This document shows, piece after piece, positions 23,531 to 62,622 of a stretch of DNA of 64,000 nucleotides (position 1 is its first letter; the number at the start of each line of letters is the position of its first letter). Source of the DNA: Crocinitomicaceae bacterium. Its GTDB lineage: Bacteria; Bacteroidota; Bacteroidia; Flavobacteriales_D; Crocinitomicaceae. Position numbers and translations under genes: made by a program. The notes beneath the pieces were generated by a model. The model saw only the letters and a program-made list of their open reading frames with translations, did no database searches and had not been told where the DNA came from. Where the stretch lies: NCBI GenBank assembly GCA_023957475.1, contig JAMLHA010000004.1:124001-188000 (forward strand), read 5' to 3'.

Positions 23531-23597
23531 ATACTGGTTTTTTGAATAATGTTTTTGAATCTACTGCTTAATCGTGCCAAAGCCTATTAACTCATAT

Positions 23598-23730: not shown

Positions 23731-23786
23731 CTTCGGTGTTCTTTTTCGTCCGTTGGTTTGTCGGTCGTTTTGGTCGTGCGGTTGGA

Positions 23787-27800: not shown

Positions 27801-27857
27801 TGCGTTTCCGAGTCTGTACCTTTTGTCTATGTTGTCAATATATTGTTCTAAAGTCAT
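24804..27857 (-). CDS. Type ISP/IIG restriction-modification enzyme
   Basis: The single 1017-residue chain holds nuclease, methylase and specificity parts. The N-terminus has a PD-(D/E)xK nuclease: PD at 53-54 and E68-x-K70 in GFIEAKD. A helical region follows, with GVWYTPQPVVNFIVRAVDD near 321-340. The N6-adenine methylase has motif I DPATGTGTFL (379-388) and motif IV NPPY (497-500). The last ~450 residues should recognise DNA (target recognition domain). It probably methylates adenine at its own sites and cuts unmodified DNA, in the manner of LlaGI/LlaBIII-type enzymes, although I see no clear helicase motifs; Eco57I-like type IIG is the alternative. It lies between B0 and B1. Confidence 0.85.
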   Translation of the reverse strand: MTLEQYIDNIDKRYRLGNATEHTFRGDLQQLLESLVPTIRATNEPKRQSCGAPDYILTKKDIPVGFIEAKDIGDKDLDGTKKTGNKEQFDRYKASLNNLIFTDYLSFHLYRDGEFITKISIGEITEKGIKPFTENFASFENLIKDFCSHVGQTIKSSKKLAEMMAGKARLLSDIIGKALTSDEINHEDSTLKDQMLAFKQILIHDITPQGFADVYAQTIAYGMFAARLHDPTLGTFSRQEAAELIPKSNPFLRKLFGYIAGPDIDDRIKWIVDSLTDIFLACNVEEILKNYGKSTKMEDPIIHFYETFLSEYDPKLRKSRGVWYTPQPVVNFIVRAVDDILKTEFDLPQGLADTSKTKIKVDVQGKKVEQEVHKVQILDPATGTGTFLAEVVKHIHKKFQGQQGIWSNYVETHLLPRLNGFELLMASYAMAHLKLDLLLTETGYKPTTNQRFRVYLTNSLEEHHQDTGTLFANWLSTEANEANHIKRDTPVMCVIGNPPYSGESANKGEWIMSLMDDYKKEPGGKEKLKERNPKWINDDYVKFLRYGQHFIEKNGSGVLAFINPHGFLDNPTFRGMRWNLLKTYDKIYTIDLHGNSKKKETAPDGSVDINVFDIEQGVSINIFVKTGNKKANELGKLFHFDLYGKRDLKYDFLSDNTLKTVPYQLLPNVAPNYYFTYKNFDEQSEYDKGFQLTELFLSNTAGIVTAKDKILISETREGLKDNILSNYDIEIMPELIKTIAYRPFDNRNIYWDTSLIERSREKSMRHFLNGDNLGLASIRINKEKNYSSLFITTSLADARLSDRFLTSIFPLYLYPETNGQQTIEQSNERTPNLNPEIVNQIAEKLGLTFTNEKETTENTFAPIDILDYIYAVLHSPTYREKYKEFLKIDFPRVPYPKEKETFWQLVKLGGEIRQIHLLESPTVEQYITQYPIDGDNVVGKPKFKDGKVFINDIQYFDNVPLNAWEFYIGGYQPAQKWLNDRKDRKLEFDDILHYQKIIVALSETDRLMKEIDKIDFL

Positions 27858-27979: not shown

Positions 27980-28005
27980 GTGCGGTGGGCTTTTTTTGTA
28001 TGCCG

Positions 28006-28140
28006 CACAACGGTTTTGCGGCTTGACGCAGGCAGGGCATTTTAGCACTACTGTTGATGCGAGAACCGAACTTCAAATATAGCAAAAAAGTTCAAACGGT
28101 GCAATTCACCCCTGCTTGTGTTCAAACCGCTTGTTACAGG
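28006..28140. repeat. A element A1
   Basis: 135 bp. Left CACAACGGTTTT then arm GCGGCTTGACGCAGG. Right CCTGCTTGTGTTCAAACCGC then TTGTTACAGG. The right spacer is 2 nt, the left 6 nt. Flanked by B1 and B2. Confidence 0.85.
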
Positions 28141-28193
28141 CTGGCGTTCTTTCGGTAAAGTTGTTTTTGTTTTATTTTTATGTGTGGAATGGA

Positions 28194-39240: not shown

Positions 39241-39318
39241 GAGCGTTGGCAAAAAATAAAACAAAAACTTGGATTAATTTCAGAATTTATTTTGGTGGTT
39301 CGGTTCTTCTACGCTTGC

Positions 39319-39452
39319 CTGTAACGGTTTTCAGCTATACGCAGGCAGGGAATTTTACCACTGAACTTCCTACGAAGAACTGAACTTTGAATTTACCACT
39401 TATCTGTCCTACAAAGCACAAAACCCCTGCTTGCGTATAGGTGATGTTGTGC
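39319..39452. repeat. A element A2
   Basis: 134 bp. Left CTGTAACGGTTTTCAG, arm CTATACGCAGGCAGGG. Right CCCCTGCTTGCGTATAG, then GTGATGTTGTGCG. Almost identical to A0. The right end has GTTG in place of GTTA. Confidence 0.85.
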
Positions 39453-39508
39453 GTTCGGTGTTCTTTTTCGTCCGTCGGTTTTTCGGTCGGTTTGGTCGTG
39501 CAGTAGGG

Positions 39509-45846: not shown

Positions 45847-45870
45847 GCGGGTCGGCTTTTTACACTGACG

Positions 45871-46002
45871 CACAACGTTTTAGGCGCTCGGAGCAGAAGC
45901 CCTTCTTGCGAAGATTTCAAACTCGAAGCACGAACTCAAAGTTATACAAAAATCTTAAACTCGAAACGGTTTTGGCTTTTGCTCTGAACGCCTTGTTAGC
46001 GG
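45871..46002. repeat. A element A3
   Basis: 132 bp. Left CACAACGTTTTA, arm GGCGCTCGGAGCAGAAGCC. Right GGCTTTTGCTCTGAACGCC, then TTGTTAGCGG. The next gene stop begins 5 bp further on. Confidence 0.85.
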
Positions 46003-46007
46003 TAGCC

Positions 46008-46598
46008 TTATTCCCAAAGCCATCTTCCAATGAGTTTCCATTTATTTTTCTTATAGAGTATTTTGTCATTGTATAATAGTTTCGTTTTATAGGTATTATA
46101 TGCGATTAGAGATAAAAAACTAAACAATAGGATTAAAAATGAAATTAAAAGCACGAAATACAAATTATTTCTTCTGTTATCTTCATAACTAATTAGTGTG
46201 TTTTTGTTTATTTTGATTTCGTAAGGATTATATAAAGTATCATTTTTTAATAATCTGTTTTTAAATAAAACCACTAACGTATCTCCAACTGAATATCTTT
46301 TTTGAATTATGGACCATTTGTTTGAAAACAACTCGTCACTCAATCGAATTATATGGGACGGTTCTTTCGTTTTTATGTCTAAACATTTATTTATAATATC
46401 TGGTTTAAAAAGCCTTTTTTCGACCCAAACCTGATCTTGAAAACTATCAATAATAAAGGTTGCTTTATTTAGGCTTTCCTTATGAATTAGGTAATCTTTG
46501 ATTAAACTATAATCGAAAAACAATAAAAACAACGTCACTATGGGCGCAATTATTAAAGTCGTCCTTATTTTAAAATGTTTTTGACTTAGCTTAATCAT
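46008..46598 (-). CDS. Two-helix membrane protein, one-gene cassette
   Basis: I use the ATG at 46598 (MIKLSQKHFKIRTTL, 196 residues); the frame runs on into A4 but that part is a palindrome, not protein. There is a transmembrane helix near residues 14-34 (TLIIAPIVTLFLLFFDYSLI), an extracytoplasmic domain of about 100 residues with VGDTLVVLFKNR, and a second helix near 155-180. I do not recognise the family; a SMODS-like or DUF3592-type sensor is possible. The stop is 5 bp from A3 and the start 24 bp from A4, as in a gene cassette with no room for much else. Confidence 0.65.
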   Translation of the reverse strand: MIKLSQKHFKIRTTLIIAPIVTLFLLFFDYSLIKDYLIHKESLNKATFIIDSFQDQVWVEKRLFKPDIINKCLDIKTKEPSHIIRLSDELFSNKWSIIQKRYSVGDTLVVLFKNRLLKNDTLYNPYEIKINKNTLISYEDNRRNNLYFVLLISFLILLFSFLSLIAYNTYKTKLLYNDKILYKKNKWKLIGRWLWE

Positions 46599-46622
46599 TG
46601 TTTTTATGTCTATTTGGGGATT

Positions 46623-46756
46623 ACCGCTAACGTCCGGCAGGTTGGCGAGGGCGAGGTTTTCCCCGAAAACCCAAATCCGAAGCCGAAACTGCAAATTTAA
46701 CGAAAATGTTTCAACGAAGCATTTTCGCCCCGCTCTTGCCAACCTGATGTTAGCGG
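46623..46756. repeat. A element A4
   Basis: 134 bp. Left ACCGCTAACGTCCGG, arm CAGGTTGGCGAGGGCG. Right CGCTCTTGCCAACCTG, then ATGTTAGCGG. The centre is AT-rich with CGAAGC words also found in other A elements. Confidence 0.88.
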
Positions 46757-46786
46757 TTCGGTTATTTTTTCTCGTCCATTTGTCAT

Positions 46787-47284
46787 TTAATATGCGGCAG
46801 CCATTGCCATTGCTTTATGATAATTTATGCTGTGAAGTATCGTAAACAAAAACAGTTCTTTATTTTCCAATTTATCAAATTCGTCAGTTGTTGCAATTGT
46901 ATAGTCAAAACGAAGTTTTTTCCATTGAAAGTCTGTGTCAACCGAAACTAACTCGTTTTTGTCCGTGTCAATTAAAATGTAATTTCGACTTAATAATGTT
47001 TTAAGTTTTAAAAGATAATTTTTCTCCTTATTGTCAAAATGTGTTTTTAAAACAATCCCTTTCCAACTGATTTTGAGTTCCAATAAAGTCTTGTTGTTTT
47101 GTTGCAGTTCAATTTTATAGTTCCAACGTCCTTTAGTAACAAATTTATATTCTGTCTTACCGTCAATGTTGATGTCGGCTTTGAATGAATACCATTTCGG
47201 ATAAACTAATTCGCCAATAAGTTTGTCGTTGAGTGTCAAACCGAAATTTTTTTGGTTTATTGAACTTACCTTGTATTGTCCCAT
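46787..47284 (-). CDS. Unknown protein, one-gene cassette (Tubby/LURP-like fold possible)
   Basis: The 165-residue protein has no signal peptide. It is beta-rich in its first 130 residues, with many aromatic strands (GELVYPKWYSFKADINI, YKFVTKGRWNYKIEL), which reminds me of a Tubby C-terminal-like or LURP-one barrel, and ends in a helix (FLFTILHSINYHKAMAM). Function is unknown. It lies between A4 (30 bp from the stop) and A5 (46 bp from the start), so it is a one-gene cassette. Confidence 0.65.
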   Translation of the reverse strand: MGQYKVSSINQKNFGLTLNDKLIGELVYPKWYSFKADINIDGKTEYKFVTKGRWNYKIELQQNNKTLLELKISWKGIVLKTHFDNKEKNYLLKLKTLLSRNYILIDTDKNELVSVDTDFQWKKLRFDYTIATTDEFDKLENKELFLFTILHSINYHKAMAMAAAY

Positions 47285-47330
47285 TTTCTTTTATGTTTTG
47301 GTTTCTATTATGGTCGTCATTTTAACTGAC

Positions 47331-47464
47331 CGCTAACGTCCCGCAGCTATGCCCAGTAGCCGTTTTGCGGGATTCGTCGCTGTCACCCGCTACAAGTTTT
47401 CTGCGGGGCACTGCTGTTTCAATTTGCTCTTTCATAGGCTATTGGGCATAGGTGCTGTTACCTG
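47331..47464. repeat. A element A5
   Basis: 134 bp. Left CGCTAACGTCCCGCAG, arm CTATGCCCAGTAGCC. Right GGCTATTGGGCATAG, then GTGCTGTTACCTG. The stop of the next gene is 3 bp beyond. Confidence 0.88.
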
Positions 47465-47467
47465 TAG

Positions 47468-48199
47468 TTATTCTTGGCGTTTGTAAATCATTTGTATCAT
47501 TACAGCTTCGTAAGTAATGTAAGTACCTTTAACCTTTCGTTCCTGAACCCAGTATGAATTAATAATTAGTCGCCCTTCTTTGTCAATGCCAATGAATGAG
47601 ATTGCTGCTGCAGCTTTAGATAATCCATAAAGCAATAAAAACCGTTTACTCTGGATGTCATAATTTTTACTGACTACACGCTTAAAACTTTCTCCAGCTT
47701 TATCTGCACCGTACAAGTTGAATTTGGTTTCGGTAATTGATAGAAATGCATCTGCGTCCGTTTCGTTGTGAACAAGTTTTGAGTTTCGGTATATTTTTTT
47801 GTCGGCATAAACAACAGAGTCGATGTAAGAAACTCGTCTATTACAAACGCTTCTCCAATCACCTATTACAGCTTTGGGGTCTGTTATCATTGTTATTGTG
47901 TCAAGTTGAACATGTGTTCTGGCGGAGGGCATACACCACCAGGTCTGAACTCCATTGTTGTTATATGAAAGCCCCATTTGTGTGCGCAGAATGTCTTGGG
48001 TTAAGTAGCGTTCATAATAATTGTAGTCATTGTCCCACTGCTCAAATGTTGGTGTCGGAAATAAGTTTGCATAGTCAAGTGGAAAGTCAATAGTTTCCTT
48101 TTTACCGCTTTCAATTTTCTGTATGAGTTCTTTAGGTACACCACAAGCTGTCAGTAAAACTGTCGTTGCGAAAAAATATGTCAGTAGTTTTCTATTCAT
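47468..48199 (-). CDS. Unknown lipoprotein, one-gene cassette
   Basis: The 243-residue protein has a lipoprotein signal (MNRKLLTYFFATTVLLTAC, lipid Cys at 19). The rest has no known domain for me. It shows mixed alpha and beta segments: a WWCMPSARTHVQLDTITMITDP strand block, several charged stretches and a C-terminal SYWVQERKVKGTYITYEAVMIQMIY. Probably it sits in the envelope. The stop is 3 bp from A5, and the start 33 bp from A6. Confidence 0.65.
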   Translation of the reverse strand: MNRKLLTYFFATTVLLTACGVPKELIQKIESGKKETIDFPLDYANLFPTPTFEQWDNDYNYYERYLTQDILRTQMGLSYNNNGVQTWWCMPSARTHVQLDTITMITDPKAVIGDWRSVCNRRVSYIDSVVYADKKIYRNSKLVHNETDADAFLSITETKFNLYGADKAGESFKRVVSKNYDIQSKRFLLLYGLSKAAAAISFIGIDKEGRLIINSYWVQERKVKGTYITYEAVMIQMIYKRQE

Positions 48200-48232
48200 A
48201 AAGTTGATATTTGAAGGTCATTCAATAATTAC

Positions 48233-48366
48233 AGGTAACGGTTTGGCGGCTTGACGCAGGGCGGATTTTACCGACAAATGTTAATACGAAGATAATACTT
48301 TTTTCTTTACGAAAATGTTCAATCGAAGCAATTAACCCGCCTTGCGTTCAAACCGCTTGTTATAGG
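48233..48366. repeat. A element A6
   Basis: 134 bp. Left GGTAACGGTTTG, arm GCGGCTTGACGCAGGGCGG. Right CCGCCTTGCGTTCAAACCGC, then TTGTTATAGG. Its arms resemble those of A1. Confidence 0.88.
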
Positions 48367-48407
48367 CATACCCCTTTGATATTCAGTTTATTAATTTGTT
48401 TTCTGTG

Positions 48408-48465: not shown

Positions 48466-48482
48466 TAAATGTATTAGGTCTT

Positions 48483-49334
48483 TTACTCGCTTTTAACTCT
48501 TTCCGAAATCTGTTTTGCAATCTCTTCAATTGTAAAACTTGATGTGTTTAAAGCTAACATATCTGCAATAGTCGGACTGAATTTCAACACTTCATTTTTG
48601 CTTATCTTGTGCCAAATGGGCAATATTACTTTTTCTCCGTTTATTTCTCTTGCAAATAGTCCGTCCAATTCTCTTTGTGGCCATTCTTTGCTAAAAAATG
48701 CCTCTGATAAAACCACAATCCCATAACGTGAATTTCTTAAACCACTATCAATAGAACGCCTTAAACTATCTCCAATTTTGAGAGAGAACTCGTCATACCA
48801 AACATTGATCCCATATTCTTGCAAACAATTAACAAAAGGACGTACGAACTCGTCTTTATCCTCCGAAGCGTGTGAAACAAAGACATCGTAATTGCTAACA
48901 GTGATGCTTTGGGGTTTAATTATATCAATTGAATAAAGAGATAATCTTTTTTGTAGTTCCATTTCTCTTGTGATTTGTTGTTGTAACGACAACATTTCTT
49001 TTTGTTCTTTTTTTGCCTTATCTCTTTCTCTTTGTTCTTCTTTGGTTAACTTAGAAATCAAATCAAGTCTCTTTTTTTGTTTTTCTGACAGTGTTTTAGA
49101 TTTTGTGCTTTTGTCCTTTTCTAATTTGTTTATCTCTTCATTTTTTCTTGTTAAGTCCTTTTGATATGAAATTACTCTTTTCAAATCTTTTTCTTTTGAT
49201 ATTTTTTCGAGAATTCTATGTGCTTCTTTTTGTTTACGGCTGATATTTGTGTCAATAGTTTGAATATTCTTCTCAACGGTGTTTATGTTTCTATCAATAT
49301 TTGCTATATCTCTCGCAATGCTTTCTATTCTCAT
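48483..49334 (-). CDS. Coiled-coil TIR-domain protein in a restriction operon
   Basis: The 283-residue protein begins with about 140 residues of coiled coil (NIDRNINTVEKNIQTIDTNI..., Lys- and Glu-rich). A TIR domain (about 150-283) follows: YDVFVSHASEDKDEFVRPF, WYDEFSLKIGDSLRRSIDSGL and LSEAFFSKEWPQRELDGLF, in which the Glu of QREL is at the place of the catalytic NADase Glu. TIR proteins in phage defence often use up NAD. It is the fifth gene of the RM operon, 9 bp after the last methyltransferase, which suggests a backup suicide role. This is inferred. Confidence 0.88.
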   Translation of the reverse strand: MRIESIARDIANIDRNINTVEKNIQTIDTNISRKQKEAHRILEKISKEKDLKRVISYQKDLTRKNEEINKLEKDKSTKSKTLSEKQKKRLDLISKLTKEEQRERDKAKKEQKEMLSLQQQITREMELQKRLSLYSIDIIKPQSITVSNYDVFVSHASEDKDEFVRPFVNCLQEYGINVWYDEFSLKIGDSLRRSIDSGLRNSRYGIVVLSEAFFSKEWPQRELDGLFAREINGEKVILPIWHKISKNEVLKFSPTIADMLALNTSSFTIEEIAKQISERVKSE

Positions 49335-49343
49335 TTTGTACTT

Positions 49344-50381
49344 TTAAAGGATTTCTTGAAATTCATTTAGTATTGCTTGTTTTATTGTTTCTTCAAAACA
49401 ACTATTCACTAACGCATTTACAACATTCCACATTAAAACAGGTGGAACAGCATTACCAATTGCACGGTATTTTCTGTTATCTGAAACACTGTCTAATTTG
49501 AATGATAAAGGGAATGATTGAATACAAGCGGCTTCTCTTGGTGTAAATCGTCTATATCGCTCTCCAACCATTAAAACAGGGTCGGTTCCGTTAAGGCTTA
49601 CTTTTGCTAAATGTGAGGTTATTGTATTGCAAGGTTCGTTTAAATCCTGAACTCGACCCTTATTCATCTTTTCTCTGACCCGTAACATTCCATCAACAGC
49701 TCTTTGACTGAAAAACCATTTTTCGTCTTTATCTGCTTTTTTATCAACTACTTGTTTTAAAACAATCTTAGAACTGTCTAAGGTGTTAGGCAACGGGAAT
49801 TTGAAATTGAAATAATCGACAAAATCTCTAAAACCCATAATAAAAACACGCTCACGCTTTTGAGGGACACCAAATTCAGAAGCATTTAAAAGTTTATAAT
49901 GAATGTGATAACCTGCTTTTTCAAATTCTTTTATAATTAATGGGAATGCTTTTCTTTTATTTGCCGAGAGTAGTCCTTTAACATTTTCTGCAATAAAAAA
50001 CCTAGGCTGTTTTTCTTTTAAGACTCTTACCATTTCAAAAAATAGTTGCCCTCTTTCGTCTTTATAACCCAATCTTGGTGGATTTTGGGCACTTATTGAG
50101 AATGATTGACAGGGAAAACCTCCTAACAAAATATCGTGGTCAGGTACTTCATCTGCAACAATTTCCCGAACGTCTTTTGTTTCACATTTATGCGAAAAAT
50201 TATCATTATAAATTTTAGTTGCATATGCATCATTATCAACTGCATAAACAACTTCAAAAGGTAATTCTGCATAATGCTTGTTAAGAAAATTAAAACCTCC
50301 TTGAATGCCTAAATCCATCCCTCCGCAACCACAAAAAAGCGAAGCAACCTTTAATTTGCTATTTCCAAAAGTTTCTGCCAT
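49344..50381 (-). CDS. DNA cytosine-5 methyltransferase (second of the operon)
   Basis: The 345-residue protein has motif I ASLFCGCGGMDLGI (13-26), motif IV GGFPCQSFSISAQNPP with catalytic C91, motif VI ENVKGLLSANK near 137, motif VIII PQKRERVFIMG and the closing RAIGNAVPPVLMWNVV. It overlaps the nuclease gene by 31 bp. Two different C5 methylases in one operon suggest an asymmetric recognition site with each strand handled by one enzyme, or one may be orphan. Confidence 0.95.
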   Translation of the reverse strand: MAETFGNSKLKVASLFCGCGGMDLGIQGGFNFLNKHYAELPFEVVYAVDNDAYATKIYNDNFSHKCETKDVREIVADEVPDHDILLGGFPCQSFSISAQNPPRLGYKDERGQLFFEMVRVLKEKQPRFFIAENVKGLLSANKRKAFPLIIKEFEKAGYHIHYKLLNASEFGVPQKRERVFIMGFRDFVDYFNFKFPLPNTLDSSKIVLKQVVDKKADKDEKWFFSQRAVDGMLRVREKMNKGRVQDLNEPCNTITSHLAKVSLNGTDPVLMVGERYRRFTPREAACIQSFPLSFKLDSVSDNRKYRAIGNAVPPVLMWNVVNALVNSCFEETIKQAILNEFQEIL

Positions 50382-51790
50382 TGTCCTGATGTTTTAGAAA
50401 ATTCAACAACTAAATTTTTATCAATTTTTAAATTACCTAATTCAAATTGTTTGATTGGGTTTTGAATGACAAAAATATTTTTACCCTCGTCATTTATCAC
50501 TAAATAATATACGTAATAATTATCGCCCAATGTCTCGGCTGTATCCCATTCGTTTGGTGTGAGTTTAAAACGGTTATTATTGATTGCTTTTCTTGATTTA
50601 GTCGTCTTTACTTCGATATACCGTTTCTTTTTTTCTATTTCAATACTTTGTAAATCATATCCAACTCCAAGTGGTGTAGGGATTTTGTTGATTAAATGCT
50701 GACGGTTTGAACCGTCTTTTGTTCTCAAATATTCGTGTGCTAATATTAGTGTTTCACCATAGTCGCCTATTATTTTTGTGGGAACTTTTCTATCTTCTTT
50801 CATTCGTGAATAATACTCTTGAATGAGTGCAGATATATTTTCAACTTCCTGTTCTTCTAAATGTGGTGCGAACGCTTCGATGTTATCAAAACTATTTACA
50901 TAATCAAACCAGACCGCTTCTAATGCTCCGATTTCAGGATTTGTAATTTCGTCTATATTGTAGAATTTATCGTACTCATCAAACCAAACATCATTCTGTA
51001 AGTGAAAGTTAATAGCCTCTTTGTTTTCGTTATTAAGATAGTAATAATAACCTGTTCCTTTATGCTGTAATAGGTTGGCTAAAACCATATAGTCCAAAAT
51101 ATCTCCAGCATAACGATTTGTATCGCCTTTTGACGGAAACTTGCCTGTACGTTCGTTTCTTAGGGCTTCATAGTCATATTTATATTCTACTTTATCTTTT
51201 CTGTTTTGTAGAATGAGTTTAGCGACTTCTTTCGCTTGTCTTTCTCCCGTGGTAACACGTAGGTCAAAATAAGCACATTGTGTTAATTCTTCTGCTGTTA
51301 TGCTAAATGATTTTCCTGTTAATTTCTCTCCTTCAATAAGTAAATTAAGTATAAACTGACAAGGTTTAAATCTTACACCTGCCTCAATCTGTTTGATTAC
51401 ATTTTGAGATTTAATATGACCGCCAGGATATTGAAATGAAAATAAAAAGTAATTAAAAAACTCATCTAAATATTGATTGTTAGCAAGTCTTTTTGCCATT
51501 AGTCCGGGTTGAGAATAATTATTAGTTTCTTGTATAAATCCAAACAAGGCAGAAATCTCTGTACGCCAATTATCAATTGTTTTTTGTGTAGATGTTGCAT
51601 TCTTCTTAAACCCAAATAACACCTTGTTCAATTCATTTCTAAAATCGCTGTTTGGCAGAACTTCTATTTCTGAAATTGAGGTTGCTACATACAACAAAAC
51701 TTCCTCTACATCATTTTTAAAACGAGGTCTAACGTGATGTAATCGAAAAAAATACTCTTTAGGTATTCGGTATGTTTTTATTTCGCTCAT
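50351..51790 (-). CDS. Restriction endonuclease with DUF3883-type PD-(D/E)XK domain
   Basis: The 479-residue protein is helical and unassigned in its first 320 residues. The C-terminal part has GDYGETLILAHEYLR near 340, GVGYDLQSIEIEKKKRYIEVKTTKSR near 370-395 and NEWDTAETLGDNYYVYYLV near 405-425. D in GYD, E and K in IEVKTT fit a DUF3883/NOV-type nuclease core. Between two C5 methylases it is the obvious cutter of a type II system. It overlaps the first methylase by 4 bp (ATGA) and the second by 31 bp. Confidence 0.87.
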   Translation of the reverse strand: MSEIKTYRIPKEYFFRLHHVRPRFKNDVEEVLLYVATSISEIEVLPNSDFRNELNKVLFGFKKNATSTQKTIDNWRTEISALFGFIQETNNYSQPGLMAKRLANNQYLDEFFNYFLFSFQYPGGHIKSQNVIKQIEAGVRFKPCQFILNLLIEGEKLTGKSFSITAEELTQCAYFDLRVTTGERQAKEVAKLILQNRKDKVEYKYDYEALRNERTGKFPSKGDTNRYAGDILDYMVLANLLQHKGTGYYYYLNNENKEAINFHLQNDVWFDEYDKFYNIDEITNPEIGALEAVWFDYVNSFDNIEAFAPHLEEQEVENISALIQEYYSRMKEDRKVPTKIIGDYGETLILAHEYLRTKDGSNRQHLINKIPTPLGVGYDLQSIEIEKKKRYIEVKTTKSRKAINNNRFKLTPNEWDTAETLGDNYYVYYLVINDEGKNIFVIQNPIKQFELGNLKIDKNLVVEFSKTSGQWQKLLEIAN

Positions 51791-52830
51791 AAATATTTTT
51801 TTATTTCTGTAGCCAATACTTTTGCCAAAATTGGTGGAACTGCATTACCAACTTGTTTATATTGACTTGTTTTACTTCCTAAGAAAATAAACGAGTCAGG
51901 AAATGATTGTATTCTTGCACTTTCCCTTACAGTCGGAACACGATTGTATTTATAATGGAAATGATGTCTGTGTCCTGTATCAATCGTAAAGCTCGGCTTT
52001 TCACTATTTAATCGTGTCCAAGCAATATTTACATTTCTTGTTTTTTGTAATTCTTCGGGTAAATCTTTGTAATTTCCCCCATCAGGAACAAGTGAAATAA
52101 TATTTATTGTCTGTTCTTTATGATTGGTTATTTCGTGATTAAAAATTCCATTAGAATTTTCTCTAATTAGCTTTTGATAATCTGACTTCGGTTCTGTTTT
52201 GTATTTAGTTCCATCTTTCAAAGTTTTTTCAGGCAAATCCGAAATTGCATCTTTTGAACTTATTGGATTTGCTGTTGTTTGTTCAGGAAAAACAAACTCT
52301 TTGTTATTTTTTGCACCAACAAAAAATGCTCTTTTTCTGTTTTGTGGAACGCCAAAATCTGAAGCTAATAAAACTTTGTAAACTACGGTGTAACCAAGTT
52401 CTTCAAAATCTGCAATTATGCTGTCTTTTACAACGCCTTTTCCCATAGAAACAATGTTAGGCACATTTTCCATTAGAAAGACTTTTGGTTGATAATGTTT
52501 TACAAAACTTACAAATGATTTGTAAAGTTGATTACGCTCATCATCAATTATTCTTTTCCCTGCAATGGAAAAACCTTGACAAGGTGGCCCACCAATTATT
52601 ACATCAACATCTTTAATGTTTGTTTCTTTTTGAATTTCTTGAGGCGTTTTTGTAAATAAATCAGCAACAATTCCTTTTGCATTTTTGTGAGTATTTTCAA
52701 ATGTAACAATCGCATCTTTCCAATGGTCAATACCCAATAATACATCATAACCTGCTTCGATAAACCCATAAGAAAGTCCACCACAACCACAAAACAAGTC
52801 TATTACTGTTGGTTTATTTTTCATTTTCAA
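51787..52830 (-). CDS. DNA cytosine-5 methyltransferase (first of the operon)
   Basis: The 347-residue protein has motif I VIDLFCGCGGLSYGF (9-23), motif IV GGPPCQGFSIAGKR with catalytic C84, motif VI ENVPNIVSMGKG near 123, motif VIII PQNRKRAFFVG, and motif X YKQVGNAVPPILAKVLA near 326. It methylates the host's recognition sites. It overlaps the controller gene by 17 bp and the nuclease gene by 4 bp. Confidence 0.95.
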   Translation of the reverse strand: MKMKNKPTVIDLFCGCGGLSYGFIEAGYDVLLGIDHWKDAIVTFENTHKNAKGIVADLFTKTPQEIQKETNIKDVDVIIGGPPCQGFSIAGKRIIDDERNQLYKSFVSFVKHYQPKVFLMENVPNIVSMGKGVVKDSIIADFEELGYTVVYKVLLASDFGVPQNRKRAFFVGAKNNKEFVFPEQTTANPISSKDAISDLPEKTLKDGTKYKTEPKSDYQKLIRENSNGIFNHEITNHKEQTINIISLVPDGGNYKDLPEELQKTRNVNIAWTRLNSEKPSFTIDTGHRHHFHYKYNRVPTVRESARIQSFPDSFIFLGSKTSQYKQVGNAVPPILAKVLATEIKKYL

Positions 52831-53152
52831 ATTTTATTTTTCCTTGTTTTGTATTTATACTTTTTAGATAATTTATTTTTTCTTCCGCAACAATCAGCGT
52901 TTCAGGTGAACAGTTGTATTGATACATTTTCTTTGCGAATTGGTCTGCAAAATATTCTGTTTTCAACTGTTCAATGTCAAGATTAAAAGCAGTTGCCAAT
53001 TTCTCTAATCGTTTTTCGTCAAATTCACGTTTCCCATTTTCGATTTTGCTTAAATTTGCACTATCAAGGTCAAGCTGAAAAGCAAGTTGCGTTAAAGTTA
53101 AGCGATGGCTTTTCCTTAATTTTCTTATATACTCCCCAAATGTTGCTTTCAT
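52814..53152 (-). CDS. XRE-family controller (C) protein
   Basis: The 112-residue protein has a helix-turn-helix of the Xre type: FGEYIRKLRKSHRLTLTQLAFQLDLDSANLSKIENGKREFDEKRLEKLATAF (5-56). A short helical C-terminus follows. As first gene of a restriction operon, with a palindrome over its own -7 box (see 53171-53214), it fits a C protein that delays nuclease production when the operon enters a new cell. It overlaps the methylase gene by 17 bp. Confidence 0.9.
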   Translation of the reverse strand: MKATFGEYIRKLRKSHRLTLTQLAFQLDLDSANLSKIENGKREFDEKRLEKLATAFNLDIEQLKTEYFADQFAKKMYQYNCSPETLIVAEEKINYLKSINTKQGKIKFENEK

Positions 53153-53214: not shown

Positions 53215-53246
53215 TTTTTTTTAATGGTTTTTTAAGCGTTGGAAAA

Positions 53247-53309: not shown

Positions 53310-53330
53310 GTGCGGTGGGTCAGGGGTTGC

Positions 53331-53490
53331 CTTTAACGTTTTCGGGCTTTGCGTTCGGGCGGGTTTCAGAGCACAAAGCTTCAATTTATTACTAAAGTTT
53401 ATTAGAAGCACAAAGCTCCAAGTTTGCACAGCTTGTCCCGTGAGGAACGAAACGGGATCAGCCCGCCTGACGCAAAACCCGTGTTAGTGG
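53331..53490. repeat. A element A7 (long variant)
   Basis: 160 bp. Left CTTTAACGTTTTC, arm GGGCTTTGCGTTCGGGCGGG. Right CCCGCCTGACGCAAAACCC, then GTGTTAGTGG. The centre holds an extra ~25 bp with GCACAAAGCT twice and a small inner hairpin, CCCGT...ACGGG. Confidence 0.85.
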
Positions 53491-53508
53491 CTGGCGTTCT
53501 GTTTTCCG

Positions 53509-54816
53509 TCATTGTACAAATATTGGGAATGTGAATTTTTCTGTTCCAGTATGGTCTCTAATAATTTTACATTCTACATAATGATGTCCAAGATAAGCTG
53601 CCGCTGTCTCACATATTACTTTGTTATGGTTTGTTTTATTAAAGTCGTGTCGTGACATATTTTTACTTTCTGCTTCTTGTCCCGAATTATATGCATACCA
53701 TTCAATTCTCTCAAAGCTTTGTTTTACATATAGAGAGTTTCCACGTTTCAAGCGGAAAACTATTTTTTTTCCTTTGGGAATTGAACGAGAATTAGGAAAG
53801 TATCTTTCAGTGTTACTTCCGCTTTCATCTGAAATAAAACATTCAATATGTATTTGCTTTTCTTTCACTTCAATTGACTTGCCATCGCTACTTTTTCCCA
53901 TATAGGGAAGTGAAAGCAAGTAGTCCTGCCAATTAAAAACAAAGAATTTATAAGTAAACTGATTTGAGATGTAGTATACTTTTTCTTTACTGACTTCAGA
54001 TTCGTAAATGCTATAAAACTCAGGTTTTAAATCCAATTTTTCCTTTACATTTCCGCCAATTAAAATATTATTATCGTATGCTTTTGATTGAAGTTTAGCT
54101 GCCATATCAGTATGTAAGCTAGTTGTAGTTAACTCATTACATCCTGGAATACCATAATAAGACCATAGAACTTGGTCAGCATTACCAAAGTCAATGCCAA
54201 CTCTAATTTTTAAAGGACGCAATTCATATTGTTTCATAATGTCTGCAAGGTCTTTTGTTACGAACTGTGTCAAAATGGATGATGCATTAAGAGCATTAAT
54301 TATAGCGTCATTTTCATTTTTATCACGTCTAACAAATTGGAGAAAAATCCCGTCACCTTGAAGTCTATGAACGTGACCGCCAAATTGGTTCGCTACTTGA
54401 ATTGATAATGTCAGCAAAGAGTCCTTTATTAACCTTACTTCTAGTAAAGAATATTTTTCAATTAGTCTTGTCGAGCCTTTTATATCTACAAAAACTGAAA
54501 CGCAGTGATGGTTAATGTAGTTGGTGTCTGCTAATTCCTTAAAGTCTGGATGCGGACCAATTGTAATAAATGGAAAAGAGTGAGGGTTAATTCCAAATTT
54601 ATCTTCAAGAAACCTTTTATCGTAAGTAAATAAAACTTTTGGCCCTTCAATTACGGCTGGAACATTTTGAGTACTCTCATTAACTGCTTTCGCTTGTATG
54701 CTTTTTTGCAAGTCACCACTAAACATTCTCTGTTCTTGTAGTAGTTTGGGTGTAACGGCTACCTTTTTCGATAGCACGTCATTTAGTCCGTCAAGGTAAT
54801 TATCAAACAGTCTCAT
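53509..54816 (-). CDS. pycC: Pycsar pyrimidine cyclase (PycC) with AGS-C sensor
   Basis: I use the ATG at 54816, whose first base overlaps the effector stop (TGATG), giving 435 residues (MRLFDNYLDG). The class III cyclase domain has VFVDIKGSTRLIEKY near 92-106 and LQGDGIFLQFVRR near 138-150, with the two metal-binding Asp, and RVGIDFGNADQVLWSYYG near 202-219. The C-terminal ~130 residues (IECFISDESG...SIPKGKKIVFRLKRG...YNSGQEAE) resemble the AGS-C sensor domain seen on such defence cyclases. Members make cCMP or cUMP on phage infection; which one cannot be seen. A TM effector precedes it. Confidence 0.87.
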   Translation of the reverse strand: MRLFDNYLDGLNDVLSKKVAVTPKLLQEQRMFSGDLQKSIQAKAVNESTQNVPAVIEGPKVLFTYDKRFLEDKFGINPHSFPFITIGPHPDFKELADTNYINHHCVSVFVDIKGSTRLIEKYSLLEVRLIKDSLLTLSIQVANQFGGHVHRLQGDGIFLQFVRRDKNENDAIINALNASSILTQFVTKDLADIMKQYELRPLKIRVGIDFGNADQVLWSYYGIPGCNELTTTSLHTDMAAKLQSKAYDNNILIGGNVKEKLDLKPEFYSIYESEVSKEKVYYISNQFTYKFFVFNWQDYLLSLPYMGKSSDGKSIEVKEKQIHIECFISDESGSNTERYFPNSRSIPKGKKIVFRLKRGNSLYVKQSFERIEWYAYNSGQEAESKNMSRHDFNKTNHNKVICETAAAYLGHHYVECKIIRDHTGTEKFTFPIFVQ

Positions 54817-55334
54817 CAGTAGATTACTATTATTAAGATTATTGAAAAAATGCAGAAAAGCTCGAAATAGACAAATCGCATAGCCCACTTTAAATTATTG
54901 TATTTTGATTTTAAGCCGTTGGCTAATTGAAATGCTTGATGAGATAGGTCTCTTTCAAATTCATTGTCAGTAAGTTTGCTAAGAGAGTCGTGATAGGCTT
55001 TGTCACTCTCAAATTCTGATACAGAATTGAAGAAAATGTGAGAATGATAATTGTCTTTGCTTGAGTTTCCCGATATTAAATATGGGTAAACTGCATTTAT
55101 AACAAAAACAGTTGTCACAATACTGCTAATAATTAAACAGCATAAGGCTATGTTCAAAAGTGTTGCACCGCAGTTGTCTGTAATTAGTTCAATCATTTTT
55201 GAATAGTTAGCTATTACTCCACCAGTCAAAAAGGTATTGAATGCCAATAGAAAATTCCCTTTCACATTGGCACCCGATATGTAATTGTCATACCGCTGTA
55301 TGATGAATTTTGTGTTATCTGTCTGTTTGTCCAT
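54816..55334 (-). CDS. pycTM: Pycsar membrane effector (PycTM-like)
   Basis: The 172-residue protein has transmembrane segments near 25-45 (NFLLAFNTFLTGGVIANY), 55-78 (LLNIALCCLIISSIVTTVFVIN) and 152-172 (FVYFELFCIFSIILIIVIY). Between them is a soluble part with EFERDLSHQAFQLANGLKSKYNNLKWAM, which fits the DUF5706 effector family. Bound cyclic pyrimidine would trigger it to disturb the inner membrane and stop phage growth. It is translationally coupled to the cyclase gene. Confidence 0.83.
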   Translation of the reverse strand: MDKQTDNTKFIIQRYDNYISGANVKGNFLLAFNTFLTGGVIANYSKMIELITDNCGATLLNIALCCLIISSIVTTVFVINAVYPYLISGNSSKDNYHSHIFFNSVSEFESDKAYHDSLSKLTDNEFERDLSHQAFQLANGLKSKYNNLKWAMRFVYFELFCIFSIILIIVIY

Positions 55335-55476
55335 ATTTAATTTTATGTTGTCTATGTCGTGTTACGCTTGCCACTAACTCTTTTATATATTCAGTCAAAA
55401 CTTCCCTTTAGCTAAAAATTCCTTTCTAAAGAGATAAAATGTTTCGCCTATTCATTGTACAATAATAATAAAAAAA

Positions 55477-55584
55477 TTACAAATCATCAAACGGACTTTT
55501 GATATTTTCAATTTGTTTTTTGGATACATGTGTGTAAATTTCAGTTGTACGGCTACTGTTGAACACAGGAATTGCTACGCCCAT
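55477..55584 (-). pseudogene. C-terminal remnant of a tyrosine recombinase
   Basis: The 35-codon minus-strand frame ends SSRTTEIYTHVSKKQIENIK followed by SPFDDL and stop. This is the C-terminal tail of XerC/D- or IntI-like recombinases, with the nucleophile Tyr in TEIYTHV. The frame upstream is not recognisable (MGVAIPVFN), and no other catalytic part is found nearby. It is the only piece of site-specific recombinase in the window and lies inside the palindrome array, 154 bp before A8. The short length is the main limit, but the tail is very typical. Confidence 0.75.
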
Positions 55585-55737: not shown

Positions 55738-55882
55738 TTGAAACGCCATAGAGAAACCGAATTGGCTCCCGAATGCTTCTGTCAACAAGGACTAAAGCCG
55801 AAGTTTACTCCACGTTGTTCCGTGAAATCGCTGCGCTAAGTTCGTTTCACTACACTGCGGTTTAGTCTCTATATGTTAGCGG
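55738..55882. repeat. A element A8 (degenerate)
   Basis: 145 bp. Left TTGAAACGCC, arm CATAGAGAAACCG. Right CGGTTTAGTCTCTATATG, then GTTAGCGG. The left core has AAAC instead of TAAC and the arms need a 3-nt bulge. An inner pair, GGACTAAAGCCGAAG and CTGCGGTTTAGTC, competes. Confidence 0.6.
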
Positions 55883-55950
55883 ATACCTTTATTGATAAAT
55901 GTATTTTTATCTGCTCGTCAGTTTGAAATACAACTACTTCCGTTTTGATA

Positions 55951-56433: not shown

Positions 56434-56511
56434 ATAAATTCTTTTAACCCCTATGGTAATCCTAATTTAACATTCCTGTTTATTTATTTCAGGTTGGTTT
56501 TATTAGGGTTT

Positions 56512-56647
56512 CCGCTAACGTTTTGGCAGCTTGGCGAAGACGGCACTTTTTGTACAAATCTTTAATCGAAGCTTCGACCTCAAATTTAACGAAAAACTTT
56601 AAATCGAAGCTATTATTGCCGTTTTTGCCAAACTGCGGGTTAGCGAA
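56512..56647. repeat. A element A9
   Basis: 136 bp. Left CCGCTAACGTTTTG, arm GCAGCTTGGCGAAGACGGC. Right GCCGTTTTTGCCAAACTGC, then GGGTTAGCGA. The stop of the following fragment is 4 bp away. Confidence 0.87.
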
Positions 56648-58755: not shown

Positions 58756-58890
58756 TCGCTAACGGTCGCGGCTATGAGCAGTGCGGGATTGCGTGGTTAC
58801 GACCCTATCACCCGATAAGAACCTTGCCAGCGGGAACTGAACTTGCAAATTGCATTGAAACCCGCATTGCTTATGAGCCGTTGTTAGCGT
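58756..58890. repeat. A element A10
   Basis: 135 bp. Left CGCTAACGGTC, arm GCGGCTATGAGCAGTGCGGG. Right CCCGCATTGCTTATGAGCCG, then TTGTTAGCGT. The coding end of the neighbouring membrane-protein gene reaches into the right arm. Confidence 0.87.
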
Positions 58891-59461
58891 TTCGTTGTTT
58901 TTTTTGTTCAAGTTTTCTAAATCCATAAAAAATTAGTCCGCTACATATTATTAATCCAAGTATTGCAGGAATAATAATTGACTTCCCCGATTCTCCAGCG
59001 TTTTGAATACTCCAAACTATCTTTCCTGTCGCCATTAAAACTACCACACCAAGTCCCATAATTAAACTACGTTTCCAGAAAGCAAGTCCTAATGCGAAAA
59101 ATGAAATTGGAACCGTAATAATTAGCATTATTTTTTTATAATTCCATTCACCATATAACCAGTCTTTTTCAAATTGTAGAAATGTCTTAACATTATCGCT
59201 TACGAATTCTGGTCTATTAAACCAAAACATACTTGTAAAAAGGCAGAATACTGTTATCGAAATTCCTGTCCAACTTCGCTTATATGCATAAAAACAAAAC
59301 GGCATCAAAAAAATTGGTCTTATATACCAACTCCATTGGTTGTGATGTCTATCAAAAACCCAGTCAAAGAAGGTTTGATTTGTCATTGATACAACCAAAA
59401 ATATAATTGTCAATGCAAAAAAAATCAATGCGATTATTTTATCCTGATTAATTAGTTTCAT
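58871..59461 (-). CDS. Multi-pass membrane protein of unknown function
   Basis: The 196-residue protein has about five hydrophobic helices: 9-28 (KIIALIFFALTIIFLVVSM), 46-62, 65-85, 107-128 (KKIMLIITVPISFFALGLAF) and 150-175 (IIIPAILGLIICSGLIFYGF). The last residues NANNGS and the stop are read from the right arm of A10, so the end of the protein has been set by the element. No family known. The start is 52 bp from A11. It forms a one-gene cassette. Confidence 0.7.
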   Translation of the reverse strand: MKLINQDKIIALIFFALTIIFLVVSMTNQTFFDWVFDRHHNQWSWYIRPIFLMPFCFYAYKRSWTGISITVFCLFTSMFWFNRPEFVSDNVKTFLQFEKDWLYGEWNYKKIMLIITVPISFFALGLAFWKRSLIMGLGVVVLMATGKIVWSIQNAGESGKSIIIPAILGLIICSGLIFYGFRKLEQKKQRNANNGS

Positions 59462-59513
59462 ATTCTTTCATTTAGTAATTATCTGTCTGGATGCGTGTTT
59501 TTTTTTACAATGA

Positions 59514-59646
59514 ACGCTAACGGTTACGTGTATGAAACGTTTGGCATTTCGAAGGGATTTCTTATCAAGTTACAACTACTTTTGATACGAGCTGAAATGC
59601 TTGATAAATCACTGACTGCCAAATGTTTTATACACGATGTTAGCGG
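59514..59646. repeat. A element A11
   Basis: 133 bp. Left CGCTAACGGTTA, arm CGTGTATGAAACGTTTGGCA. Right TGCCAAATGTTTTATACACG, then ATGTTAGCGG. One of the best-paired examples: 20-nt arms with two changes. Confidence 0.9.
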
Positions 59647-59671
59647 TTCGTGCTTTTTATATCATTGCATT

Positions 59672-60025
59672 TTAAGTCTTTATAGTGTTTAAAATCTTCT
59701 TTTTCCATTGTAAAATTATACTGTTCTGACACTCAGAATTTAATATTACAAAGAAAAAAGCAAGTTTGTTCATACGCCAGTCTATATAGGTTTTTCCACT
59801 TTCAATTTCTGTAACATAAATCCGTTTCAGATAATGAGTTGTATCCAAATTAGCCATACGCAATATATGGATTGTTTTTAGCAAGGCTTCATTAAGATCG
59901 GCTTCGGTTTCAAACCCTGCTTTATATAAATCAGATGTTCTGTATCTTAGCTCACAATCATTGACAGCTTCATGAAAACGATTGATTATTTCATTAATCG
60001 GTAAAGGATATTTTATGATATTCAT
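59672..60025 (-). CDS. Unknown small helical protein next to DnaJ
   Basis: The 117-residue protein is helical: PLPINEIINRFHEAVNDCELRYRTSDLYK, ADLNEALLKTIHILRMANLDTTHYLKRIYV, then a short DWRMNKLAFFFVILNSECQN. It is 25 bp after the dnaJ stop, on the same strand, and could be in its operon. It does not match the CbpM modulator that often follows CbpA. The stop is 25 bp from A11. Function unknown. Confidence 0.6.
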   Translation of the reverse strand: MNIIKYPLPINEIINRFHEAVNDCELRYRTSDLYKAGFETEADLNEALLKTIHILRMANLDTTHYLKRIYVTEIESGKTYIDWRMNKLAFFFVILNSECQNSIILQWKKKILNTIKT

Positions 60026-60050
60026 TTCTCAATTAATTTATATATTACAT

Positions 60051-60983
60051 TTAAAATAAAGTTTTAAGTTCTTCAAAGTGTTTTTTCTGCTTATCAGTAA
60101 GTCTTTCGGGTATTTGAACATCAATTTTTACGTACAAATCACCGAATTGATTTTTGCTCTCATAAACCGGCATGCCTTTATTTTTCAACCTAAAAGTCTT
60201 ACCGTTTTGCGTTCCGGGCTGAATAGGTAATTTCACCTTACCGTCAATAGTTCCTACTACTATTTCGCCTCCCAGCACAGCAGTAAACAGGTCTATTTTT
60301 TGCGTTGTGTGTAAATCGTATTCCTTGCGTTCAAATTTTGGGTGGTTCAATACTTTAATTTTAACATATAAATCGCCGTTATTTTGTCCATTTGAAGTTT
60401 TTTGCCCTTTTCCTTTAATTCGTAAATTTTGCCCATCGACAGTACCGGGCTTAATTTTTATTCTTATTTTTTCATTTTCCAATTGAATAATTCTCGAAGT
60501 GCCATGAAAGGCTTCTTCAAGCGTTATATCTATTGTTGTTTCATAATCAGCCGCTTGTTGAAAATTTCCCCACGAACCACCACCAAAATTTGTGGATTTT
60601 GCTCTTCTGCCTCCACCAAAAAACATATTAAAGAAATCGGAAAATTGATTGTTTCCATTCATAAAGTCATCCATATCCATTTCGACATACGTTCCTCCCT
60701 GTCCGAAATTAAAGTTTCCGAACGGGTTGCCACCCGAATATGCCTGACCGGATTGAAAGTTTTTCCAATTTGTACCAAGCTCGTCATATTTTTTGCGTTT
60801 TTCGGCATCGCCAAGCACTTCGTAAGCTTCGCCGATTTCTTTAAATTTCTCCTCTGCTTCTTTGTTTCCCTGATTTTTATCGGGATGATATTTAACGGCT
60901 AACTTACGATATGCCTTTTTTATCTCGTCTTGCGATGCCTTTTTATCAACGCCTAATATTTTATAATAATCTTTGTATTCCAT
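60051..60983 (-). CDS. cbpA: DnaJ-class chaperone, CbpA-like
   Basis: The ATG at 60983 gives 310 residues ([12 protein letters not shown]); the frame also has a TTG 12 bp upstream. The J domain (1-70) has the HPD motif in [10 protein letters not shown] Gly/Phe-rich linker (about 75-150) with FGGGRRAK follows. No zinc finger is present, so it is type II (CbpA). C-terminal substrate domains begin near [20 protein letters not shown]. It works with DnaK to handle unfolded proteins. It heads a heat-shock group with two Hsp20 genes upstream. Confidence 0.93.
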
Positions 60984-61093
60984 ATCCAAAAACAATTATT
61001 ATTCGTCACTTTGACAACTCAAAATAAAAAATATTCCGAATATTAACCAAAGCATCATAATGTTATAGATTTTAAGAGTTATACATCTTTATT

Positions 61094-61131
61094 AAAATCG
61101 GTGCTTATGTTTTTAATTAAGCACCGATTTT
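61094..61131 (-). terminator. Intrinsic terminator of the Hsp20/lipoprotein genes
   Basis: Stem AAAATCGGTGCTTA (61094-61107) with TAAGCACCGATTTT (61118-61131), 14 bp perfect. It follows the lipoprotein stop by 12 bp in the direction of transcription. Confidence 0.85.
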
Positions 61132-61143
61132 ACAAAAGTTCCA

Positions 61144-61626
61144 TTACTTATTCTTTTTTTGCTCGGGAAATTGCTCCATGAAAAACTTGTTTTTAATGGA
61201 ATCCATTTCCCAAAACATTTTGTCCATTCGTTGCATGTTCCGCATAAAACGGTCGTGAAAAAAATCTTTTTTGTAAAAATCGTAGTGCAACAAGCTGTCT
61301 TCGAAAAACAAATTATCGAAATATGGCTTTGTAGAAAATGGATAGCGATTTTCAAACATACTTCGGAAGTTATTAAAGATACTGTCGCCTGCGGCTTTGT
61401 TTCCGTCAACATTTGAATAATAGTACGTATATGTAGAGTCGTAACGGATTAAATTTCCGTCCTTATCGTACTCTTTGTTTACTTTAATATCTTCTTTGGG
61501 CTGATTCCCAGATATTAAGGCAGAATCAGCACTATTTTTATTTTTCTCCTTTTTTATCTCTTGTGCATTGCAACCTGAAAAGATTAATGAAATTGCAATG
61601 AACATAGTTATCCATTTTATTTTCAT
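61144..61626 (-). CDS. Small lipoprotein of the heat-shock cluster
   Basis: The 160-residue protein has a lipoprotein signal (MFIAISLIFSGCNAQ, Cys near 19), a charged linker (IKKEKNKNSADSALISG) and a helical, Phe-rich, Met-rich C-terminus (FFHDRFMRNMQRMDKMFWEMDSIKNKFFMEQFPEQ). It lies 19 bp after hsp20 and is followed by a terminator. A role in envelope stress is likely only from the context. Confidence 0.7.
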   Translation of the reverse strand: MKIKWITMFIAISLIFSGCNAQEIKKEKNKNSADSALISGNQPKEDIKVNKEYDKDGNLIRYDSTYTYYYSNVDGNKAAGDSIFNNFRSMFENRYPFSTKPYFDNLFFEDSLLHYDFYKKDFFHDRFMRNMQRMDKMFWEMDSIKNKFFMEQFPEQKKNK

Positions 61627-61645
61627 AATCTTACAATTTTAAAGG

Positions 61646-62086
61646 TTACTGAATAGCAATTTGTTTCTTATTTTCAATGTAGCCTTTTTTCTTTGCCACT
61701 TTAATCGAAAGAACTCCGTTTTTCATTTCAGCCTGTACTTTATCCTGGTCGGCACTTTCGGGCAATTGAAACATTCGTTGGAACGAAGCATAGCCGTATT
61801 CTCTGCGCATCCAGTTTCTGTTTTTCTCTTCTTTTTCGTATTTTTTTTCAGACGAAACAATCAAACAATCGTTTTGTATTTCGATTTTTACATCTTTCTT
61901 ATCAAGTCCGGGCAAAGCTACACTTACCTCAAATGCCTTGTTTTCGTCTGCAATATTCACCGATGGAACTGTTGCAACTTCTTCGTTATGAGAAGTATAA
62001 TCGGTTATTTTTTTACCGAAAAATTTTTCCACAAAATTCGGAAATTTCGGTTTCATATCTGATATATTCCATTTGAACAGTTTCAT
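61646..62086 (-). CDS. Hsp20 small heat-shock protein (second copy)
   Basis: The 146-residue protein has an N-terminal arm (MKLFKWNISDMKPKFPNFVEKFF) and an alpha-crystallin domain (about 45-135: AFEVSVALPGLDKKDVKIEIQNDCLIVSSEKK, RREYGYASFQRMFQLPESAD, VQAEMKNGVLSIKVAKKKG). It also has an IAIQ end with an I-x-I type motif. It holds unfolding proteins until DnaK/DnaJ act. It is 89 bp after the first hsp20, with a hairpin between them. Confidence 0.95.
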   Translation of the reverse strand: MKLFKWNISDMKPKFPNFVEKFFGKKITDYTSHNEEVATVPSVNIADENKAFEVSVALPGLDKKDVKIEIQNDCLIVSSEKKYEKEEKNRNWMRREYGYASFQRMFQLPESADQDKVQAEMKNGVLSIKVAKKKGYIENKKQIAIQ

Positions 62087-62133
62087 AACTCAAATTATTT
62101 ATGGTTAACCATTTGTTGTAAAATTTTAAGAAG

Positions 62134-62163
62134 ACATCTGTGGGAAAAGATTCCCACAGATGT
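62134..62163 (-). terminator. Hairpin between the two hsp20 genes
   Basis: Perfect 12-bp stem ACATCTGTGGGA (62134-62145) with TCCCACAGATGT (62152-62163) and a 6-nt loop. Few T follow it, so it may be an attenuator or mRNA-stability site instead of a full terminator. Confidence 0.65.
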
Positions 62164-62175
62164 AACTTAAATCAA

Positions 62176-62622
62176 TTACGAAATTGAAATTTGTTTTACG
62201 GGTTTTGGTTTTGCTTCTTCTTTTTTAGGAATTGCTAAACTCAAAACACCGTTTTCGTATTTTGCAGAAATTTCTTCTGCATCGACAGTTTTAGGCAAAG
62301 TAAACGAACGGCTAAACGATTGATAACTATACTCACGGCGAGTATAGGTTTCGCCCTCTTTACTTTCGTTTTCATTTTTCTTTTCAGACGAAATTGTCAG
62401 CAAATCGTTGTTGAGTTCGATTTTAAAATCGTCTTTTACCATTCCGGGTGCAGCCATCTCAACTACAAAAGTATCGGTGTTTTCTTTGATGTTTACTGCC
62501 GGTAAAGTTGTGTTTGTGTCTGAATAATGACGGTTTGACCAATCAGACAAATCGTTGTTAAAAAACTCGTTTACGAAGTTTGCCCAAGTAGGCAAATAAT
62601 CGCTTCTTCTTAAAAGTGCCAT
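62176..62622 (-). CDS. Hsp20 small heat-shock protein (first copy)
   Basis: The 148-residue protein has MALLRRSDYLPTWANFVNEFFNND at the start, and an alpha-crystallin domain (about 45-135) with VVEMAAPGMVKDDFKIELNNDLLTISSEK, RREYSYQSFSRSFTLPKTVDAEEI and YENGVLSLAIPKKEE; the end KPVKQISIS has an I-x-I motif. A clear Shine-Dalgarno AAGGAGT lies 6 bp upstream of the ATG, which is unusual in Bacteroidota. It is the first gene of the heat-shock group. Confidence 0.96.
   Translation of the reverse strand: MALLRRSDYLPTWANFVNEFFNNDLSDWSNRHYSDTNTTLPAVNIKENTDTFVVEMAAPGMVKDDFKIELNNDLLTISSEKKNENESKEGETYTRREYSYQSFSRSFTLPKTVDAEEISAKYENGVLSLAIPKKEEAKPKPVKQISIS

Follow-up and report, generated by a model that had tools for sequence, protein, structure and literature searches.

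Integrons (IntI/attI/attC), including the sedentary chromosomal ones, are built of head-to-tail gene cassettes, each with a hairpin site at its 3' end, a crossover at G^TT and matching cassette ends; the attI site adjoins a tyrosine recombinase gene, and the genes run in a common direction. The locus described here shares all of these features. Integrons are reportedly very rare in Bacteroidetes, for which a large survey gives only In0 and then one complete case in Salinibacter (PMC9024848). The IntI insertion has been held necessary for integron activity, and integron finders require it (PMC9668308, PMC8138268). A search of the open literature, which left out preprints and most subscription journals, gave no description of a Bacteroidota integron whose integrase is without the IntI domain. 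The window, that is the whole stretch of 64,000 nucleotides analyzed here, comes from a Crocinitomicaceae draft genome, and we consider it very likely that its interval 46003-48366 lies within a large array of cassettes, in an integron-type system run by a Xer-like integrase, the catalysis by this enzyme being inferred.

The interval is divided by the hairpin elements A3 to A6. The intervals A3-A4, A4-A5 and A5-A6 measure 754, 708 and 902 bp, and each contains a single CDS:

46008..46598, minus strand: cassette gene 1, 196 aa from the ATG at 46598
46787..47284, minus strand: cassette gene 2, 165 aa
47468..48199, minus strand: cassette gene 3, 243 aa, lipoprotein-like N-terminus

The distance from stop to element is 5, 30 and 3 bp, and that from the start to the next element is 24, 45 and 32 bp, so that the interval sizes, the one-gene content and the stop and start distances of an earlier sequence-only reading held. 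For cassette gene 1, a longer ORF of 244 aa would start at a TTG within A4. None of the three proteins has a match in Pfam. Cassette gene 2 is present in 8 and cassette gene 3 in 4 of the 395 genomes of the class, the own genome counted in both cases. A 61% homolog of cassette gene 3 in a different family is also the sole gene between two same-strand elements; flanking elements were not clearly seen around the best homolog of cassette gene 2 (L182).

Read in gene direction, an A element consists of an R'' box (N5-6 TAAC), 1-3 nt, a stem of ~19 bp, a loop of 60-75 nt, the second stem arm, 5-7 nt and an R' box GTTRNNNN(Y). GTTR is found in 40/40 core sites. A covariance model, R1, was built from eight alike elements with the structure set by hand, because MAFFT misaligned the stems in a mixed set of elements. 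A search of the array stretches with R1 returned 53 hits (E up to 0.02), including one duplicate from overlapping loci, and the elements match the model at E 2e-3 to 6e-29; the divergent or longer A5, A7, A10 and A11 score low yet pass, and A8 is missed. The window contains 13 elements recognized by the model or by eye, together with the divergent A8, spanning 23.6 to 63.1 kb; one of them, at 39317-39454, is an additional attC-like site that was absent from the numbering of the earlier reading:

23595..23732, minus strand: A1, attC-like site, R1 96.2 bits; last element of the array, adjoins ribosomal-protein-like genes
28003..28141, minus strand: A2, attC-like site, R1 112.2 bits; matches the 39317 element
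39317..39454, minus strand: additional attC-like site, R1 98.1 bits; matches A3 and closes a 6.4-kb cassette
45868..46003, minus strand: A3, attC-like site, R1 105 bits; R' GTTGTGCGT matches R'' of the 39317 element
46623..46757, minus strand: A4, attC-like site, R1 123.9 bits; R' GTTAGCGGT matches R'' of A3
47329..47465, minus strand: A5, attC-like site, R1 24.1 bits; R' GTTAGCGGT matches R'' of A4
48231..48367, minus strand: A6, attC-like site, R1 124.5 bits; R' GTTACCTGT matches R'' of A5
53329..53491, minus strand: A7, attC-like site; R'' GCCACTAAC matches the window attI end GTTAGTGGC
55740..55883, minus strand: A8, divergent element, read by eye and not by R1; R'' TCCGCTAAC matches R' of A9
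56511..56647, minus strand: A9, attC-like site, R1 123.1 bits
58755..58891, minus strand: A10, attC-like site, R1 26.2 bits; matches A9
59513..59647, minus strand: A11, attC-like site, R1 30.9 bits
62962..63097, minus strand: A12, attC-like site, R1 117 bits

The stem sequence varies among the copies while the form is kept, as is likewise the case for attC sites. On the R1 alignment, 92.4% of the pair cells are standard pairs, compensatory changes occur in 17/17 stem pairs, and changes on both sides were counted in 285 cells, as compared to 82.5 in shuffles. As this alignment had been fitted to the structure, it is biased in favor of that structure. The A elements are thus covarying hairpins that resemble attC sites; an Rfam search of the window returned RNase P only.

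The whole genome contains about 48 element matches, which form same-strand arrays on contigs C28 (the contig of the window), C2, C30, C5 and C29, besides a few single copies. The C2 array begins directly behind the gene of a 360-aa tyrosine recombinase (C2:16047-17126) and has the same direction. The window contains a copy of this junction:

55368..55481, minus strand: attI copy, which up to GAGTTA has the same sequence as the DNA following the intact C2 integrase
55482..55571, minus strand: 3' tail of an integrase gene, SSRTTEIYTHVSKKQIENIKSPFDDL-stop, the sole integrase remnant in the window

The DNA behind the C2 integrase stop equals the window attI copy over ~115 bp, and immediately beyond GAGTTA the two no longer agree; exactly the same point of divergence is seen in a third copy, located at C28:193.8 kb. 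The linkage is not confined to this genome. In named contigs, mostly of Bacteroidota, that were found via the integrase, 38 of the 41 element matches lie downstream of an integrase homolog on the same strand; Flavobacterium enshiense DK69 has ten consecutive elements and a Sphingobacteriales MAG has six. Of six platforms, five show agreement over nine bases between the attI end GTTRNNNNN and the first R'' box, the sixth being different. The orientation is not uniform across the wider family, because in G020:C21, G001:C49, G025:C38 and G017:C76 the nearest elements lie 5' of the integrase-like gene and are divergent from it, which is the arrangement of canonical integrons; possibly this represents a second layout within the family. 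Two further loci were noted. At L009 (G000:C21:1-4765) the contig end cuts a different integrase-like gene (C-terminus ISPLDHLDISE), behind which lies a short array of cassettes; this is a second platform truncated by the assembly. L194, on the 57-kb Chryseobacterium oryzae plasmid NZ_CP094530, has a 55% identical integrase with a VOC-family gene right behind it, and the platform may therefore be mobile.

Whether the elements are boundaries of mobile cassettes or merely palindromes can be decided from their ends. If the elements were independent palindromes, the bases beyond AAC and GTT should match within one element; if they are cassette junctions produced by cuts at G^TT, a cassette is expected to begin with bases that match the R'' box of its own far end, located in the next element. 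At the variable positions 5-9 a perfect match was found in 30/40 neighboring pairs versus 3/43 within elements, and 20000 permutations of the cassette-end match gave a mean of 2.0 and a maximum of 9. The same test in other Bacteroidota genomes resulted in 14/18 cassette-end versus 0/24 within-element matches, with a permutation maximum of 7. Cassette-end matching amounts to 97-100% over positions 1-9, fails at positions 10-11, the cassette-start side invariably having A at position 11, and partially returns at positions 12-14. Among the ten failing pairs, two have an intervening attI copy whose flanks match correctly (GTTAGTGGC to A7, and GTTATGCGG to the element at C28:192433). As the ends match per cassette and not per element, they carry the signature of a G^TT crossover and of circular cassettes. 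A further trace of movement is a one-gene cassette of 724 bp that is present in both the C2 and the C30 arrays with 99.3% identity and different neighbors, the identity being bounded by GTTA sites. The circular intermediates and the recombination activity as such are inferred, and no recombination has been observed.

Two rival explanations can be judged on this basis. According to the first one, the elements are MITE-, REP- or terminator-like palindromes that are dispersed among resident genes without any cassette movement. They are indeed conserved short intergenic hairpins with a few single copies outside arrays, but the cassette-end test gave the opposite result to that expected from palindromes in this genome as well as in the others, and the elements are clustered in one direction, with exact cassette copies between arrays. 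This explanation is all but excluded. The same holds for the second one, an ordinary operon-like cluster in which the elements are transcription signals only. The unidirectional genes, the little spacing and a TAnnTTTG box in some elements speak for it, but it predicts neither matching cassette ends nor the copies of cassettes and attI, and the cassette genes are patchy in their distribution. The reading as integron cassettes that had been proposed earlier is supported by the cassette-end test and by the exact breaks of the cassette copy and the attI copies.

It is still possible that the elements affect transcription. The motif TAnnTTTG, a Bacteroidota-type -7 box, occurs at most 70 nt from the integrase stop, between stop and attI, at 20 of 57 loci, compared to 3.2 in shuffles and 3 on the opposite strand; a TTG frequently lies 18-22 nt upstream of it. 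Within the elements the box occurs in 16/53 cases on the cassette strand versus 3 on the other. That these boxes are promoters is inferred from the knowledge of Bacteroidota promoters. The earlier claim that almost no room is left for promoters is therefore only partly upheld, as ~30% of the elements carry such a box on the cassette strand.

The C2 integrase has XerA/XerC-like recombinases and IntI4 as its best solved relatives, and an AlphaFold model was obtained with a mean pLDDT of 82.8 and a pTM of 0.52. In the region of the IntI-specific insertion it has 25 residues, compared to 67 in IntI4, and its profile scores remain below the cutoffs (195 bits for TIGR02249 with a cutoff of 265; 213.6 for NF040815 with a cutoff of 220). 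When the family was aligned with IntI1 and three further IntI, the insertion was present in 0/21 Bacteroidota members and in 4/4 IntI. In the tree, 19 of the 21 Bacteroidota members form a group (90/96) that is separate from the IntI and Xer groups; the outlier XER_ownC33 is a mis-extracted sequence and was excluded from all claims. Features of the array-linked family are an additional ~80 aa at the N-terminus and a conserved C-terminal SPxDxL. The relatives of the integrase point to Bacteroidota as the taxon of the genome.

A third rival explanation would be a canonical IntI integron, or a CALIN remnant, whose IntI was lost or not assembled, with the C2-type recombinase as a bystander. The integron-like site logic and crossover are in favor of it, and several arrays of the draft genome have no integrase on their contig. 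Against it, no protein of the own genome or of 59 relatives passes the TIGR02249 cutoff, in many genera the Xer-like integrase directly precedes the array and its stop is followed by attI, and GTTRRRY is found in only 2/40 sites. We regard this explanation as very unlikely. The earlier reading as integron cassettes has to be corrected in that the linked recombinase is not a canonical IntI and lacks its insertion.

The cargo is oriented with the array: in 35 of the 39 intervals bounded by elements, every ORF of 60 aa or more has the array direction, and two of the exceptions, one on C28 and one on C5, are large cassettes that are related to each other. The element spacing ranges from 0.7 to 12.9 kb with a median of 2.2 kb, and many cassettes are multi-gene, so that the integron anatomy cited in the earlier reading, one gene in 0.5-1 kb, is true for the three cassettes at 46003-48366, such cassettes being a minority overall. 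Other cargo of the window comprises:

24804..27857, minus strand: type IIG restriction-modification protein, in the A2-A1 cassette
39603-40583, 40580-42817 (helicase-like), 42822-44408 (HATPase) and 44344-45699 (C5 methyltransferase): the 6.4-kb cassette between the 39317 element and A3
48483..53152, minus strand: A7-A6 multi-gene cargo with a TIR protein (48483-49334), a C5 methyltransferase (49344-50381) and further ORFs
53509..55334, minus strand: first cassette behind the window attI copy, PycC (53509-54888) and PycTM (54816-55334), a complete Pycsar defense pair
58871..59461, minus strand: one-gene cassette, 196 aa, between A10 and A11
59672..62622, minus strand: A12-A11 multi-gene cassette, ends matching over 9 nt; DnaJ/Hsp20-like ORFs, recognized by eye only

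Three other places had been named earlier as alike to the one-gene cassettes. The gene at 58871-59461 is one, although its stop falls inside A10; the fragment at 56652 shares its interval with the ORFs 57052-57465 and 57483-58319; and the gene at 63101 belongs to a multi-gene cassette that extends beyond the window end, the next element being at C28:189442 (window coordinate 65442).

Some further observations concern the large cassettes. The first cassette behind the intact integrase (L010:6235-7104, G000:C2) encodes, as judged by eye, a reverse transcriptase-like protein beside a DNA methyltransferase-like gene, and may possibly be defense cargo. In the 11-kb cassette-like interval 28141-39317, the genes at 30806-39160 run against the array and the region at 28.2-30.7 kb appears degraded; these genes are common with C5:74769-81144 in two pieces (94% and 87%), there also between elements. 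A second hairpin type, the B elements, has CTCTTT...AATGTG internal motifs within covarying stems. All of its 20 genome copies lie in array regions in a single direction relative to the array, and they bracket large multi-gene cassettes as direct pairs (e.g. 45790 and 39517) whose start-side and end-side stems differ; the three one-gene cassettes have none. In the window they are found at:

23783-23857, 27911-27985, 28189-28263, 39173-39246, 39505-39579, 45778-45852, 48400-48473 and 53241-53315: B elements

In the integron-type system that we favor, one strand of an A element would fold into a hairpin that is recognized by shape and not by sequence, this folding in vivo being inferred. The Xer/XerA-like tyrosine recombinase (360 aa, intact at G000:C2:16047-17126) would cut at G^TT, insert circular cassettes at attI just behind its own stop codon and also move cassettes between attC sites. 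Cassettes would accumulate head to tail, oriented like the integrase gene, and would be expressed partly from the putative promoter boxes before attI or within elements. The structure of the elements, the matching of cassette ends, the exact junctions of copied cassettes and attI, and the linkage to the integrase in a common direction are shown; that the C2-type integrase catalyzes cassette recombination is likely and unproven. Points against such a system are that recombination has not been observed, that the IntI insertion is absent, that only an integrase tail lies in the window, that several arrays lack an integrase on their contig, and that the nearest elements diverge from the integrase-like gene in G020, G001, G025 and G017. 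A bolder reading, to which we lean only slightly, is a separate Bacteroidota-wide class of integrons, whose hairpin sites are recombined by a Xer-like integrase that has no IntI domain. Such integrons would capture whole defense and stress operons (up to 12.9 kb, many B-bracketed) besides single genes, and would be missed by current finders because these require the IntI domain.

If the system is active, integron-style gene capture is independent of the IntI domain or of separate origin, Flavobacterium, Algoriphagus and relatives have a common gene-capture platform with phage-defense cargo, and the origin of integron integrases from Xer-like ancestors becomes directly testable. The findings suggest an overlooked Bacteroidota-wide way to capture and shuffle genes, phage-defense systems included.

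Among recombinases, Xer and archaeal XerA are closest to the integrase by sequence and among the closest by fold, but the array-linked family differs from them in its extra N-terminal region, its SPxDxL and its linked cassette array, and 19 of its 21 members form a group distinct from the sampled chromosomal Xer sequences. The pdif modules of XerC/XerD have 28-bp dif-like flanking sites, in contrast to the ~135-bp hairpins of the A elements, although no scan for dif was made. Treponema chromosomal integrons are alike in that intI is transcribed towards attI in cassette direction (PMC3607928), but they carry a gene classed as intI, whereas the Bacteroidota family lacks the IntI insertion. Compared to integrons in general, the system works in the same way, since it passed the tests on the form of the sites, the crossover, the polarity of the cassettes and attI. 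It falls outside the definition of an IntI integron, because its integrase lacks the defining domain and because its core site is GTTRNNNN(Y), matched over at least nine bases, and not GTTRRRY; the integrase also has the additional ~80 residues at its N-terminus; furthermore, attI lies behind the integrase stop, the integrase gene runs in array direction and many cassettes hold several genes.
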